DNA from: Chthoniobacterales bacterium
Lineage (GTDB): Bacteria > Verrucomicrobiota > Verrucomicrobiia > Chthoniobacterales > JAATET01
NCBI GenBank assembly: GCA_036569045.1
Contig: DATCRI010000053.1
Span: 1 to 64,000 of the forward strand
DNA length: 64,000 bases
Reading direction: 5' to 3'
Numbering within the stretch: position 1 is the first letter of the stretch; each line of letters starts with the position of its first letter. The position numbers were made by a program, and so were the translations under genes. The notes beneath the pieces are model-generated. The model saw only the letters and a list, made by a program, of their open reading frames with translations. It was not told the origin of the DNA and ran no database searches. Positions 45,369-50,797 of this stretch are shown one piece after another.

Positions 45369-46109
45369 ATGCGAAATCTGCGACCTTTCCGCGTCGTCAA
45401 GTTTTTCCAAGCTGTGGTTGCTACCCGTTCACCGGAAATCGTTGGTAAGGGCATCTACACTGTCCCCGATGCCTCGCGCCTGAGTCGCGTTTCGCAGCGC
45501 CGCATTCGCTACTGGTTGAAGGATCTTCCCTCCGAGCAATCGAAGGAATCCCACGGTTCCCGCCTCTGGCAGGGCGAACTTCCCCCTATGGACGACAAGC
45601 TGGCCCTCGGCTTTCTCGATTTGCAGGAAGTGCGTTTCATCGACGCCTTTTTGAAAACCGGCGTCTCATGGAACCTCATGCGTGCGGCTCACGCCATCGC
45701 CCGCCACCGCTACGGGATCGAGCATCCCTTCTGCACCCGCAAATTCGTCTCGGATGGTCACCACATCATCGAGCAAACCGGCAGAGAACCCGATGGCATC
45801 AGCTACGAGGAAGTTCTGCATGGCCAGCAGGTGTTTCCACAGGTCGTTCAGCCCTTCTTACGCGACTTGGAATTTTCCTCCGACGACCAGCTGCTGCGCT
45901 GGTGGCCGCTCGGGACCGATCGCTCCGTCGTGCTCGACCCGCGCAGGCAGTTCGGCCAGCCCATCATCGCCCGCGCGGGCGTCGCGACCGAGATTCTGCA
46001 GGCGGCAGTCAAAGCCGGCCAGACCATCGAGGAAATCGCGGATTGGTATGAACTCGATTCCGACGCCGTGCGGGATGCCGTCGAGTTCGAGATGAAACTC
46101 GCGGCGTGA
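45369..46109 (+). CDS. DUF433-domain antitoxin-like protein
   Basis: 246 residues. The N-terminal part has a helix-turn-helix segment (GIYTVPDASRLSRVSQRRIRYWLKD) as in MerR/DUF433 proteins. The C-terminal ~75 residues match DUF433: GQPIIARAGVATEILQAAVKAGQTIEEIADWYELD. The middle (residues ~75-160) is of unknown fold. DUF433 proteins with a downstream DUF5615 PIN-like partner are predicted type II antitoxins. The stop overlaps the DUF5615 start as GTGA, so translation is coupled. Start choice at the N-terminus is uncertain. Confidence 0.72.
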   Translation: MRNLRPFRVVKFFQAVVATRSPEIVGKGIYTVPDASRLSRVSQRRIRYWLKDLPSEQSKESHGSRLWQGELPPMDDKLALGFLDLQEVRFIDAFLKTGVSWNLMRAAHAIARHRYGIEHPFCTRKFVSDGHHIIEQTGREPDGISYEEVLHGQQVFPQVVQPFLRDLEFSSDDQLLRWWPLGTDRSVVLDPRRQFGQPIIARAGVATEILQAAVKAGQTIEEIADWYELDSDAVRDAVEFEMKLAA

Positions 46110-46498
46110 GGTTCTTCCTCGACAACAATCTCCCGCCACGCGTCGCGCGCGCCCTTCACTGCCTGCTCCAGCCCAAAGACTCCGCCACCCATCTCAAGGA
46201 TCGCTTTGCGCCCGACGTCACCGATGTCGAATGGCTCACGGCACTGGCGGAGGAGGAGGACTGGATCATTCTCTCCGCCGATACGGCGATCACGCGGAAT
46301 CCTCATGAGATCGCCGCGTGGAAGAAAGGCGGCCACCCGACCTTCTTCCTGAAGGCCAATTGGGTGCACCAGCCCCTCTGGGAGCAGGCGTCCCGCCTCT
46401 TTCATCTGTTTCCCGAGATCCTCAAGCTCGCTGCCAAGGCCAGACGTGGCGACGCCTTTGCCGTGCCTTTCAAAGGCGCGAAGATCGAGAAGCTCTAA
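46106..46498 (+). CDS. DUF5615 PIN-like (Mut7-C type) putative toxin
   Basis: 130 residues, starting at GTG (MRFFLDNNLPPRVARALHCL). The acidic PIN-like positions are D6 in FLDNNL, D34/D38-like residues in APDVTDVEWL, and D in IILSADTAI; H-P in GGHPTFFLK is also typical. The fold is that of the DUF5615/Mut7-C RNases. It is the likely toxin partner of DUF433 through the 4-base overlap. Transcribed convergently with mntA. RNase activity is predicted from fold only. Confidence 0.7.
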   Translation: MRFFLDNNLPPRVARALHCLLQPKDSATHLKDRFAPDVTDVEWLTALAEEEDWIILSADTAITRNPHEIAAWKKGGHPTFFLKANWVHQPLWEQASRLFHLFPEILKLAAKARRGDAFAVPFKGAKIEKL

Positions 46499-46526
46499 GC
46501 CCGTCGCTACAGCGCGAGGCGCCGGC

Positions 46527-46850
46527 TTATTTTGCCGGAGATTCCAAATTCCGCCGATAAAGCGGCACCCCGACTCGCCTAATGTGAGCATCGACTTCGG
46601 GATCGGTGCGATCGTTCCAAAGAATCAGGCTGAAGCGATATGGCAGGAGCATCTCGTCGAGCGCGTCGTCGATGCGGCCCGGCAAACGCCAATCGAGATC
46701 ATTTCCCCGCAGTGCCAGATCGACGTCTGAGCCTCTCCGATGCACGCCCTTCGCACGCGAGCCGAACAGCACCGCCGACTCCACCTCCGGAAAACGCGAC
46801 AGCACCTCATTGATCCGCTGCACGGTCAGCTCTGTCAGTCCGTGGTTCAC
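46527..46850 (-). CDS. mntA: MntA-type nucleotidyltransferase antitoxin
   Basis: 107 residues, GTG start overlapping the HepT stop as GTGA. It has the minimal nucleotidyltransferase motif GS-x10-D-x-D (GSRAKGVHRRGSDVDLAL). In HepT/MntA systems MntA neutralises HepT by adding AMP to its active-site tyrosine. A C-terminal region with VDAHIRRVGVPLYRRN follows. Cytoplasmic. Confidence 0.82.
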   Translation of the reverse strand: MNHGLTELTVQRINEVLSRFPEVESAVLFGSRAKGVHRRGSDVDLALRGNDLDWRLPGRIDDALDEMLLPYRFSLILWNDRTDPEVDAHIRRVGVPLYRRNLESPAK

Positions 46851-47281
46851 GCCTCCTCCTTCTCGAGTTCGGTGAATGTGACCAGAAAATCCGCGAACTC
46901 CCCTCGATAGGACGCGACGATCGCATCCGTGATCTGGTGCGCCGTCTCCTCGTTATAGGTGTGGCTGGTGCGATTGCGGCTCTGGATCATTTCCATCCAG
47001 ACCTCGCCATCCTCGATGAGTCCTTTGGCGAAAGCCTCGCGCGTCGCATCCTTCGATCCATAGATGCCGCCGGTCCCGCGGGATTCGAGAAAGTCCTTCA
47101 TCACGTTCCACGCCAGCTCGTGCGTGAACTCGAAGGCTTGAATCAATCCCTGCTGCTCGAGATCGGTCAACTCGCGCTCCTCCGCCAGATCCACCGCCTT
47201 GTCGAGTTGGCCGAAGGCTTTGCGGAAACTCTGCAGGCGCTGCCGCCACCGGACGTCGGGATTCGACATGCCTTTTTTCAT
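46847..47281 (-). CDS. hepT: HepT-like RNase toxin (HI0074-type)
   Basis: 144 residues, mostly alpha-helical. It contains the exact HepT motif R-x4-H-x-Y (RNRTSHTYNEE) that forms the RNase active site; the tyrosine is the target of AMPylation by MntA. EFTHELAWNVMKDFLES in the middle is also typical of the HI0074/nucleotidyltransferase substrate-binding fold. It starts 6 bases before the end of hsdS... that is, downstream of hsdS on the same strand, and overlaps mntA by GTGA. An internal ATG (MSNPDV, 47269) is an alternative start. Confidence 0.82.
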   Translation of the reverse strand: MKKGMSNPDVRWRQRLQSFRKAFGQLDKAVDLAEERELTDLEQQGLIQAFEFTHELAWNVMKDFLESRGTGGIYGSKDATREAFAKGLIEDGEVWMEMIQSRNRTSHTYNEETAHQITDAIVASYRGEFADFLVTFTELEKEEA

Positions 47282-47287
47282 AGCAGA

Positions 47288-48475
47288 TCACAGCGCCCCG
47301 GAAAAGGCCTGGTGCAGCAACGACTTTTTCAACGCCTCCAGCGCCGCCAGCTTCCGCTCCGTGATCGCCGCGAGGCGCTGGGTTTCGCGCTCCAACTCCA
47401 GCGACCTATCGACGACTCGCCTCTGCGTGTCCAAATCGGGCAGCGGCACCTTCAATTCTTTAACTTCTCCACAAGTGAGATGAGGAACCGTGGAGCCCGA
47501 GCGAATCTCTTGGAACCTCTGCTTCATCCCCGACGAGTTGAAGAACAACGAAAGAAACGGTCCAATGAATGCACCTTCCACCGAAGAGATCACGATCATC
47601 GCGTGGCAGTTGTGCCCCTCGTGCTCCGGCGTGACGACCGCGGAATGGCCGATGTGGCCGCTTTGAACCAAAAGCACATCTCCCGCTTTAAGCATCGACT
47701 TCTTATTCCTCCGATTGAACTCCTCGGTAATGAAAGTCCTCCCATCAAAAAGCAGGCGGTTATCTTTGACGTGGCGTGCGAGAAGGTAAGGAACACCGGA
47801 CTCCTGATAGATGTTCCGCGTTGGGCCGACGTATCCGTTCGTTAACCGCGTGATTACGTCTCCGAGCCGCCGTTCCACCCAATCGTCGTCGCGGTGGGTG
47901 AAGACGGATTGGAGGTGGCTTTCGAAGAGGGCGCGGGCGTTTTGGAGGTTCTTTTCGGCGTTGGCTTTGGCGGTGGCGAGGCCCGCAAACGCTTCGTCCA
48001 GCACCCCGACGATCCGCTGCTGCTCCGCCAGCGGGGGGAGCACGATACCAATACTGTTGAACCTAGATTTATTTACGATTGGAACGGTGGTTCCAGACGA
48101 CAGCGCTTCAAGCTGATCTTTGAAGTCGCATGAGAGAACCTGATAAAAGATGAACTCTGGGACAGCTCGGTTCTCGTCAGGCAGGATTGCGTTGATCTGT
48201 TGATTGAAGGCAACGGGTATCGTGTTCAACGCGACCTTTCCCAAGTTTCCAATACACGAAACGAGGATGGAGTTCGGTGGAACGGTGCGAGCTACCTCAA
48301 CTCCGGCCTCCGACAGTCCGTCCTCGGCAGAATCCACCGTTGAGTCGCACAACTCCGGTGGCTTCACCAACGGCATAAAGTCGCCAAAAAATTCGGAATT
48401 GCTCTTTGAAGGTGTGTTGCCGGTTACCGTCGTGAAGACCTCTCCCAACGCAATTTTCTCCCACCCGGCCTTCAC
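47288..48475 (-). CDS. hsdS: Type I restriction enzyme specificity subunit S
   Basis: 395 residues from a GTG (MKAGWEKIALGEVFTTVTGN) that overlaps the hsdM stop as GTGA. It has two target-recognition domains (about residues 1-170 and 200-370), each followed by a conserved helical spacer with LPPLAEQQRIVGVLDEAFAGLATAKANAEKNLQN and the corresponding second copy ending LAAITERKLAALEALKKSLL. These helices set the distance between the two half-sites. Recognition sequence cannot be read from the protein. The long frame upstream of the GTG to 49312 shadows hsdM and was discarded. Confidence 0.88.
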   Translation of the reverse strand: MKAGWEKIALGEVFTTVTGNTPSKSNSEFFGDFMPLVKPPELCDSTVDSAEDGLSEAGVEVARTVPPNSILVSCIGNLGKVALNTIPVAFNQQINAILPDENRAVPEFIFYQVLSCDFKDQLEALSSGTTVPIVNKSRFNSIGIVLPPLAEQQRIVGVLDEAFAGLATAKANAEKNLQNARALFESHLQSVFTHRDDDWVERRLGDVITRLTNGYVGPTRNIYQESGVPYLLARHVKDNRLLFDGRTFITEEFNRRNKKSMLKAGDVLLVQSGHIGHSAVVTPEHEGHNCHAMIVISSVEGAFIGPFLSLFFNSSGMKQRFQEIRSGSTVPHLTCGEVKELKVPLPDLDTQRRVVDRSLELERETQRLAAITERKLAALEALKKSLLHQAFSGAL

Positions 48476-49923
48476 AGCAGAGCCCTGATGTTCCCGAGCA
48501 CTTCGGCGCTTTCGGCGTCGAGGGCGGCGATCTCGTCGAGAATCTCCGCCGGGGTGCGGTGGGCGATTTCCTCGGCGGCGTTCGGGTTCTTCACGCTCAG
48601 GTCCCATGTCGCGCGGTCGAGGCCGGCGGCGTCCACGCTCCAGCTCTTCGGCGAGTCGGCGAAGGTCTTCTGCAGCTCGACGAAGTCCGCCAGGTCGGCG
48701 TCGTTGAGCGGGTTCGTCTTGCCGAGGTTGCGGCCGGGGTCGAGCTGGTAATACCAGACGCGTCGCGTCGCACGGCCTTTTTCGAAAAACAGCACCACGG
48801 TCTTCACGCCCGCGCCCTGGAAGGTGCCGCCGGGGCAGTCGAGCACGGTGTGCAGGTCGCAGCTCTCGAGCAGGAGCTTCCGCAGGCTCACGGAGGCGTT
48901 GTCGGTGTTCGACAGGAAGGTGTTCTTGATGACGATGGCGCCGCGGCCGCCGGCCTTCAAAATCTTGATGAAGTGCTGGAGGAAGAGGAACGCCGTCTCG
49001 CCGGTGCGGATGGGGAAATTCTGCTGCACCTCGGGGCGCTCCTTGCCGCCGAAGGGCGGGTTTGCGAGCACAATGTCGTAGCGGTCCTTCTCCTGAATGT
49101 CGGCGAGGTTCTCGGAGAGGGTGTTCGTGTGGATGATGTTCGGCGCCTCGATCCCGTGCAGGATGAGGTTCATGATCGCGATCACGTAGGCGAGCGACTT
49201 CTTCTCCTTGCCGTAGAGGGTGCGGGTCTGGAGCGTCTGGAAGTCCGCGACGGAGAGCTGGCCCTGGCGCAGGTAATCGAATGCCTCGCAGAGGAAGCCG
49301 GCGGAGCCGCACGCGCCGTCGTAGATGCGCTGGCCGATCCGCGGGGCGGTGACGGCGATCATGGCGCGGATGAGCGGGCGCGGGGTGTAGTATTCGCCGC
49401 CGTTGCGCCCGGCGTTGCCCATGCGCTTGATCTTTTCCTCGTAGAGGGCGCTCAGCTCGTGCTTCTCGGCCTGGGAGCGGAAGCGGAGGGCGTCGATGGC
49501 GTCGATGATCTCGCGCAGGTTGTAGCCGCTGCGGACCTTGTTCTTAATTTCGCCGAAGATCTCGCCGATCTTGTATTCGATGGTGTTCGGCCCGGTGGCG
49601 CGCTGCTTGAAGCCGTGGAGATACGGGAAGAGCTGCCGGTCCACGAACTCGACGAGGTCGTCGCCCACGCGCAGGGCATGGTGGTCGATCTTCCCGTCCG
49701 CCCCTTTCGGCGCGGCCCAGGCCTCCCAGCGGTAGGCCTCCTCGAGGATGGGGGCGTGGGCTTTGCCATCGAGCGCGGCCTGGTCGGCGCGGTCGCGCTC
49801 GAGGCCGTCGAGGTATTTGAGGAAGAGGAGCCAGGAGGTCTGCTCGGTGTAGTCGAGCTCGGTGGTGCAGCCGGCCTCCTTGCGGAGGACGTCGTCGATG
49901 TTTCGGAAGGCTTGCTCGAACAT
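48472..49923 (-). CDS. hsdM: Type I restriction enzyme modification subunit M
   Basis: 483 residues from MFEQAFRNIDDVLRKEAGC. It has an HsdM N-terminal helical domain (TSWLLFLKYLDGLERDRADQ), the SAM motif YDGACGSAGFLCEAFDY and the catalytic NPPF in IVLANPPFGGKERP of N6-adenine methyltransferases. The C-terminal domain ends in an acidic helix. An in-frame extension to 50235 runs into the repeat region and was rejected. Order hsdM-hsdS, then HepT/MntA, then hsdR on the same strand beyond the oppositely oriented DUF433 pair. Confidence 0.92.
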   Translation of the reverse strand: MFEQAFRNIDDVLRKEAGCTTELDYTEQTSWLLFLKYLDGLERDRADQAALDGKAHAPILEEAYRWEAWAAPKGADGKIDHHALRVGDDLVEFVDRQLFPYLHGFKQRATGPNTIEYKIGEIFGEIKNKVRSGYNLREIIDAIDALRFRSQAEKHELSALYEEKIKRMGNAGRNGGEYYTPRPLIRAMIAVTAPRIGQRIYDGACGSAGFLCEAFDYLRQGQLSVADFQTLQTRTLYGKEKKSLAYVIAIMNLILHGIEAPNIIHTNTLSENLADIQEKDRYDIVLANPPFGGKERPEVQQNFPIRTGETAFLFLQHFIKILKAGGRGAIVIKNTFLSNTDNASVSLRKLLLESCDLHTVLDCPGGTFQGAGVKTVVLFFEKGRATRRVWYYQLDPGRNLGKTNPLNDADLADFVELQKTFADSPKSWSVDAAGLDRATWDLSVKNPNAAEEIAHRTPAEILDEIAALDAESAEVLGNIRALL

Positions 49924-50020
49924 GGGTGCGCGCGGAGGCCGAAATTGAGACAAGATGGAAGCGGAGGCGAGGAAAAGGTCGGCTCGTGGACGGATTGCGA
50001 AGCGAGATTTTCGTAACTGC

Positions 50021-50229
50021 CTGATATTCCGAAGGATTTCGCAGATCCTCCGGGGAATTTTGGGAATCCTCCGGCGGATGGGACGGCTCCTGCGGGGGAT
50101 TTCGCGGCTCCTCGCCGGGATGGGGTGGCTCTCTGGGAGGAGCGGGCGCGTCCTCAGCGGGATCTGGGGCGTCCTGCGGAGGAGCGGGGTGCTCCTCGGG
50201 AGGATGAGGCGGCTCCGGCGCGGGAGGGC
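50021..50229. repeat. Degenerate 21-bp tandem repeat with palindromic cores
   Basis: About nine units follow a 21-bp period; each has a core such as TCCTGCGGAGGA, TCCTCGGGAGGA, ATCCTCCGGCGGAT or CTCCTGCGGGGGAT, so almost every unit is a near-palindrome. The outer units are more diverged. The array ends about 100 bases before the hsdM start and might act as a binding-site cluster or fold into stem-loops in the hsdM leader. Confidence 0.7.
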
Positions 50230-50357
50230 GTGCATACTTCGGAGGAGCGCGGGGATTCCCCTCGCCTTCCGCGGGCGGGGACGAAGGAGCGCGCGGATCC
50301 GCTGGAGGAGGCGACGGGAGGAACGGCGGAGGCGGGAGATCCCGCGGGGGCGGGCAC

Positions 50358-50394
50358 AAAAAAAGCGGCGAACCGGTCTGGGCCGGTCCGCCGC
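50358..50394 (-). terminator. Intrinsic terminator of the 120-residue ORF
   Basis: GCGGCG-A-ACCGG pairs with CCGGT-C-CGCCGC. On the minus strand the stem is followed by TTTTTTT (plus-strand A run at 50358-50364). It insulates the repeat region and hsdM from the upstream gene. Confidence 0.8.
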
Positions 50395-50434: not shown

Positions 50435-50797
50435 CTAGGGATTCGCGACGGCGGGGGCGGCGGGTTCCTGCGAGAAGCTGCCGCGGATCTGGCGGAGGTC
50501 GATGACGAAGGGGTGATCTTTCCCGAGGAAGCCTTCGACGGCCTTCACCGTGGCGCTGGCGAGGGCGTAACTGTCCTCGAGGTCTTTGCGGCGGTTATCG
50601 GTGGCGGTCTTCAGCGCGACTTCGAGCTGGGCGATGAGCGTCTCGTCGGCGGAGACGGTGTCGTGGCCGTTCTTGAGGGTAGCGAGGCGCTGGGCGGGAT
50701 CCCAGCCGGCAGCCACGAGGGCGGGGGTGTTGCCAGTGAGGCCGGAGATGACTTTGTCGGTGAAGGCGCGTTTGTCGGCGTCGGTGAGGTTGGACAT
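50435..50797 (-). CDS. 120-residue helical protein, function unknown
   Basis: Starts MSNLTDADKRAFTDKVISGL. Helical and Ala/Leu/Asp-rich throughout (ADETLIAQLEVALKTATDNRRKDLEDSY), ending in a Pro/Ala-rich tail. It has no membrane segment or signal and no family I recognise. It is followed by its own terminator and preceded by a palindrome-rich AT segment (50889-50947), so it forms an independent unit between hsdM and the NYN gene. Confidence 0.6.
   Translation of the reverse strand: MSNLTDADKRAFTDKVISGLTGNTPALVAAGWDPAQRLATLKNGHDTVSADETLIAQLEVALKTATDNRRKDLEDSYALASATVKAVEGFLGKDHPFVIDLRQIRGSFSQEPAAPAVANP

Follow-up and report, generated by a model that had tools for sequence, protein, structure and literature searches.

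The repeat array examined here lies in a window of 64,000 nucleotides, by which we mean the whole stretch of DNA that was analysed, and is surrounded by genes encoded on the minus strand. The type I restriction-modification (R-M) gene hsdM has its ATG near position 49923, which leaves about 100 bp between its 5' end and the array, and an hsdS-like gene region lies beside it (Table 1). On the other side a gene without assigned family faces the array with its 3' end. The array had been described as flanked by a terminator and hsdM, and both are present; the terminator belongs to this neighbouring gene and ends it, so that the array occupies the gap between the neighbouring gene and hsdM. Two toxin-antitoxin-like modules, one pairing DUF433 with PIN_10 and the other a Polbeta nucleotidyltransferase with NTase_sub_bind, are located within the R-M island at 45369-47281, and long proline-rich coding-type tandem repeats with periods of 12, 24 and 66 bp are found at positions 1-400 of the window.

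Table 1. Features at and around the repeat array (positions in the window).
Feature	Position	Strand	Basis
hsdS-like specificity gene region (Methylase_S)	47288..48490	-	PF01420 1.4e-36
hsdM, type I restriction-modification methyltransferase	48472..49923	-	N6_Mtase 2.4e-56, HsdM_N 5.1e-06
In-frame open stretch, hsdM upstream through array, judged non-coding	49924..50235	-	no third-position GC signature
Array, clear part, 10-11 units of 21 bp	50024..50254		periodicity and unit alignment
Degenerate array tail, 4-5 weak units continuing the register	50255..50350		9-14 of 21 bases match head consensus
Intrinsic terminator of the gene at 50435-50797, between that gene and the array	50365..50394	-	terminator prediction
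Gene without assigned family, upstream of the array, 3' end facing it	50435..50797	-	gene call and profile search

Comparison of 50021-50250 with itself gave a mean identity of 0.598 at lags 21, 42 and 63 and a repeat period of exactly 21 bp, whereas the maximum in 2000 dinucleotide-preserving shuffles of this stretch was 0.42 over all lags from 10 to 69. Across the 64-kb window the lag-21 strength was 0.59 for the array, 0.475 for the runner-up stretch and 0.31 on average. These values confirm the 21-bp tandem repeat of the original prediction, which had counted about nine units at 50021-50229; the start is shifted to about 50024, the clear units number 10-11 and a weak tail extends to about 50350. 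The units have the core [ACG]TCCTC-SS-GRGGA[TG], which contains the near-palindrome TCCTC-SS-GAGGA, and a 7-bp variable spacer. In the register from 50024 they read ATATTCCGAAGGAT, ATCCTCCGGGGAAT, ATCCTCCGGCGGAT, CTCCTGCGGGGGAT, CTCCTCGCCGGGAT, CTCTCTGGGAGGAG, GTCCTCAGCGGGAT, GTCCTGCGGAGGAG, CTCCTCGGGAGGAT, CTCCGGCGCGGGAG and ATACTTCGGAGGAG, each followed by its 7-bp spacer, ten of them being clear and the eleventh (50234) fair; the clearest unit of the tail is ATCCGCTGGAGGAG at 50297-50310. The palindromic cores, which had likewise been predicted, exceed chance in a column permutation with 6- and 7-bp arms (p < 0.002), the result for 5-bp arms alone being not significant (p = 0.09). As this copy is degenerate it may have lost its function.

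The window-type pattern occurs a single time in its own genome (G000), namely as this array. However, when 1.52 Mb (44%) of that genome was scanned for periodicity without a given motif, five further arrays of like architecture came to light (C14, C18, C7, C21 and C28). All of these arrays, the window array included, are intergenic to the precision of simple gene calls, in gaps that are convergent (C14), divergent (C18) or co-directional (C7 and the window array). The C14 array comprises 12-13 units of GACCAG-SS-CTGGTC, the C7 array shows a 42/84-bp super-period, a 42-bp unit is common to C21 and C28, and recent internal duplications are present in C7 and C28. Column-permutation tests yielded significant palindromes for C14, C7 and C21 and none for C18. 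The palindromes of the five arrays differ from that of the window array, and since the palindromes in this genome are different no single protein could read all arrays by sequence. The C7 array (L178, 18606-18920) alternates T-tract and A-tract palindromes, CTTTTTTGAAAAATC and GTTTTCCCGCAAAAC, within its 84-bp super-period and could curve DNA. The C18 array (L111, 8791-9050) has a 21-bp period, no clear palindrome and an ALLTEEA-like heptad frame that stops exactly at the array end. On contig C1 (L094, 2880-3110) exact direct repeats, TGCCTTGAATCCACTTTCAGGCCCGGCAAACTG, are spaced at 66 bp with unrelated spacers between them, resembling a short CRISPR array.

Within the genus, three more genomes gave no match to the window-type pattern, no array of this kind was present in the part of one of them that was sampled, and the genes flanking the array were not found or too diverged for a synteny comparison. 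Stretches of about 250 kb from G003 and from G051 showed no comparable palindromic 21-bp array. A phylum-wide pattern search of 388 genomes returned, beyond the window itself, scattered one- and two-copy matches at control level, with 6 matches versus 1 in the control in G232, and none of the viral contigs searched matched an exact pattern of two units. The same exact pattern was searched in 84,980 species genomes and found at 35 loci, mostly coding Ser/Gly-type repeats as judged by sequence; seven of the 35 are located in one verrucomicrobial metagenome-assembled genome (MAG), CALMOL01 (G038 in our whole-genome set; 89% complete, 3% contaminated), which shares its order with the window genome and belongs to a different family. 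Neither 145 other genomes of the order nor six family members of G038 matched.

In G038 arrays of the 21-bp architecture are present at at least 14 places. The 12 that were retrieved have mostly 11-15 units (one is cut short by N), the core RTCYTC-SS-GARGAY and spacers of 7 or 8 bp. The window core TCCTC-SS-GAGGA is essentially a more worn state of this core; shared descent of the two sets is likely, the alternative being convergence of short GC-rich palindromes. Arrays of this kind thus form a dispersed class with one architecture rather than one repeat, present in two genomes of the same order, and the window array is best read as one worn copy of it.

The 141 units of G038 allowed us to analyse the core position by position. 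T2, C3, T5, A10, G12 and A13 are conserved to at least 97%, positions 1, 4, 11 and 14 vary almost only by transitions (R/Y/R/Y) and do so independently of each other, and the centre is mostly S-S. The degenerate positions are symmetric between the strands, and Watson-Crick pairing of the arms is no better than in permutations, both within units and across spacers. Variation of the R/Y/R/Y type with independent arms is what one would look for in a symmetric recognition site of a protein, and not in a selected hairpin. The spacers are highly variable (103 distinct of 129), and adjacent units resemble each other no more than distant units or units from other arrays, which suggests that the core is kept by selection and leaves a slippage origin of the G038 arrays unsupported.

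A period that is a multiple of three leaves reading frames open on both strands, and together with the ALLTEEA-like heptads in one frame of the C18 array this would agree with a remnant of a heptad-repeat protein gene. The base composition argues against it: GC at codon positions 1/2/3 is 0.59/0.60/0.77 in the open stretch upstream of hsdM versus 0.63/0.40/0.93 in hsdM itself, and there is no protein-family match. Stops occur in all six frames of C14 and of the G038 arrays C386 and C276, and in three G038 arrays the step from unit to unit is sometimes 21 and sometimes 22 bp, which breaks any frame and indicates that helical rather than codon phase is kept. In addition, the variable core positions are codon positions 1 and 2 of the open heptad frame, and no one frame is both open and conserved across the array members. 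The window array is thus non-coding DNA, and so is the class, given the stops and the mixed steps; a protein-coding origin is most improbable, and the open heptad frames are a by-product of the period, as had been proposed.

A second explanation places the palindromes in a transcript, where they would fold in the hsdM leader and act as an mRNA stabiliser, an attenuator or a terminator-like element, as some REP/BIME sequences do. Folding of the minus-strand RNA, the check suggested for a structured leader, indeed beats dinucleotide shuffles (z -3.3), as does the plus strand (z -2.7), and the G038 arrays fold into long structures, but good folding is expected of any palindromic repeat. Compensatory base-pair changes were absent from both the G038 and the own-genome arrays, the arms of which do not covary, no Rfam match was obtained, and the arrays occupy convergent, divergent and co-directional gaps alike. 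Spacers of one array are no more complementary to each other than spacers of different arrays, which also rules out a long hairpin spanning whole arrays. The leader-RNA proposal is weakened by the lack of covariation, and we regard an RNA function as unlikely.

The arrays might also be a selfish or neutral dispersed repeat of the MITE or satellite type, copied as arrays or tandem blocks without host function, and their association with R-M genes would then reflect shared permissive insertion sites. The arrays L083 and L091 of G038 are in-register paralogues (4.82 of 7 spacer positions identical, reached in 0 of 300 shuffles), indicating that whole arrays have been copied, and the 42-bp unit common to C21 and C28, the duplications within C7 and C28, the patchy distribution among genomes and the frequent horizontal acquisition of R-M genes are all in line with such a repeat. 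On the other hand, core bases conserved to at least 97% next to randomised spacers need selection or active copying, and neither a shared terminal inverted repeat nor a long common flank was found. A repeat without function is therefore conceivable, though on the unlikely side.

Independent evidence on the link with R-M genes, not planned beforehand, was provided by a PF02384 search of both genomes that made no reference to arrays. In G000 it gave one gene, the window hsdM, to which the finding itself had led; in G038 it gave four. Three of these four N6-methyltransferase genes (C189, C386 and C276) are located beside an array, the fourth (C380) being cut by the contig end. C386 and C276 had been retrieved for the methyltransferase alone and were both then found to carry arrays, with the core variants RTCATC-SS-GATGAY and GTYCTC-RY-GAGRAC, suggesting that arrays mark R-M loci in G038. 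With a rough array density that gives a chance of 1-5% per gene, three of four corresponds to p ~1e-5 to 5e-4, an enrichment that is strong but not final, given the approximate density and the fact that G038 is a MAG. The R-M setting is probably not a coincidence. Two of these arrays lie beside type I hsdM genes, at 859-1260 of L235 (C386) and 1-290 of L236 (C276). The C189 array adjoins genes for an N6 methyltransferase and an AccI-type nuclease, the G038 array C393 an HTH control-like gene and an N4/N6 methyltransferase, and the C28 array of the window genome C5 methyltransferase and HNH nuclease genes. In the latter (L204, 3524-4795) the 42-bp palindromic array is directly 5' of the HNH restriction endonuclease gene with the C5 methyltransferase behind, and its unit is shared with the array at L154, 9356-9629. 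Other arrays adjoin ordinary genes (DUF885, PPIase, KaiC/GlgB, TsaD, GH31, GltX).

The original prediction had also offered an array of binding sites for a regulator, for example C-protein-like or DUF433-like, and if this were a dedicated regulator of hsdM the array would serve as its operator. The position of the array about 100 bp 5' of hsdM and the arrays 5' of R-M genes at C28, C189 and C276 agree with this, but the C386 array sits 3' of hsdM and arrays with the same core lie beside many genes unrelated to R-M. Moreover, orthologous hsdM genes of 74-83% identity in related genomes (L009-L022) have no such array, and the DUF433 gene of the window forms a toxin-antitoxin-like module together with a PIN-domain gene. 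A dedicated hsdM operator is therefore improbable. At one of these orthologues (L013, 665-785, in G048) a 24-bp tandem repeat, TCGACAAGCTCAGGRCATCGCCCT, follows hsdM on its 3' side and adjoins a transposase gene of the IS200 type.

Strand-symmetric degeneracy, arms without covariation, 21/22-bp steps, variable spacers and the lack of similarity between neighbours point to selection at the level of DNA. We tentatively favour the reading that the window feature is a helically phased palindrome array serving as a binding platform for several protein dimers. The phased binding sites of the original prediction thus remain the best reading, strengthened by the relatives found elsewhere. Arrays of the class have about 12-15 near-palindromic intergenic sites, one every two helical turns (21, sometimes 22 bp), and dimers of a DNA-binding protein could sit on these sites aligned on one helix face. 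Lined up side by side, the dimers would form a nucleoprotein patch that may insulate, silence or mark the junction between neighbouring genes and, at R-M loci, might act on the R-M cassette. A broader and rather unlikely proposal is that such arrays are a hitherto undescribed class of bacterial DNA element, with about 12-15 phased palindromes specific to the locus or family, that prefers junctions between R-M cassette and chromosome and, coated there with protein, forms a boundary, a landing site or a silencer for acquired defence genes. If arrays do mark the sites of R-M cassettes, they would give a handle on the placement, insulation or silencing of acquired defence genes. Their layout, palindromes phased at two turns with a sequence that changes by locus and a constant architecture, could not be matched to a described repeat class, and the papers searched contained no earlier account of intergenic palindrome arrays with a 21-bp period in this bacterial group.

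Several known systems share parts of this layout. Like REP/BIME elements, to which several proteins are described to bind (PMC2817692), the arrays are dispersed, intergenic palindromic units in clusters and occur in all gene orientations. REPs, however, measure 20-40 bp, whereas the arrays have 21-bp units phased to two helical turns and a core that varies between arrays. A GTAG/CGTC tag at one end of each palindrome defines the two large REP super-families, and the verrucomicrobium O. terrae is reported to be rich in GTAG-type REPs (PMC3733652). In our arrays of 12-15 units GTAG/CTAC occurs 0-1 times per array and CGTC/GACG sporadically; since the REP tag is absent we do not class them as REP, the likeness to BIMEs being one of layout only. 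A tblastn search for RAYT with one IS200-type query gave no match in the 1.5 Mb of G000 and the 93 kb of G038 that it covered. CRISPR arrays likewise alternate conserved palindromic repeats with variable spacers, but at 14 bp and 7 bp the cores and spacers here are much too short, certain spacers turn up again in other arrays, and the protein families scanned included no cas genes. C-protein operators are also palindromic sites upstream of R-M genes, yet C-boxes are few and not known to be scattered at non-R-M loci, in contrast to a dozen phased sites here; conservation before orthologous R-M genes was not found, and the genes examined near hsdM in the window included no cognate small HTH control protein. 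One such protein is encoded near C393 in G038. Plasmid centromere arrays such as sopC of plasmid F likewise comprise roughly a dozen palindromic sites at regular intervals, to which a dimeric protein binds, as would be the case here. No parAB pair was noticed beside the arrays described here, and whereas a plasmid carries a single centromere array, with units of 43 bp, here there are many arrays per chromosome with units of 21 bp.
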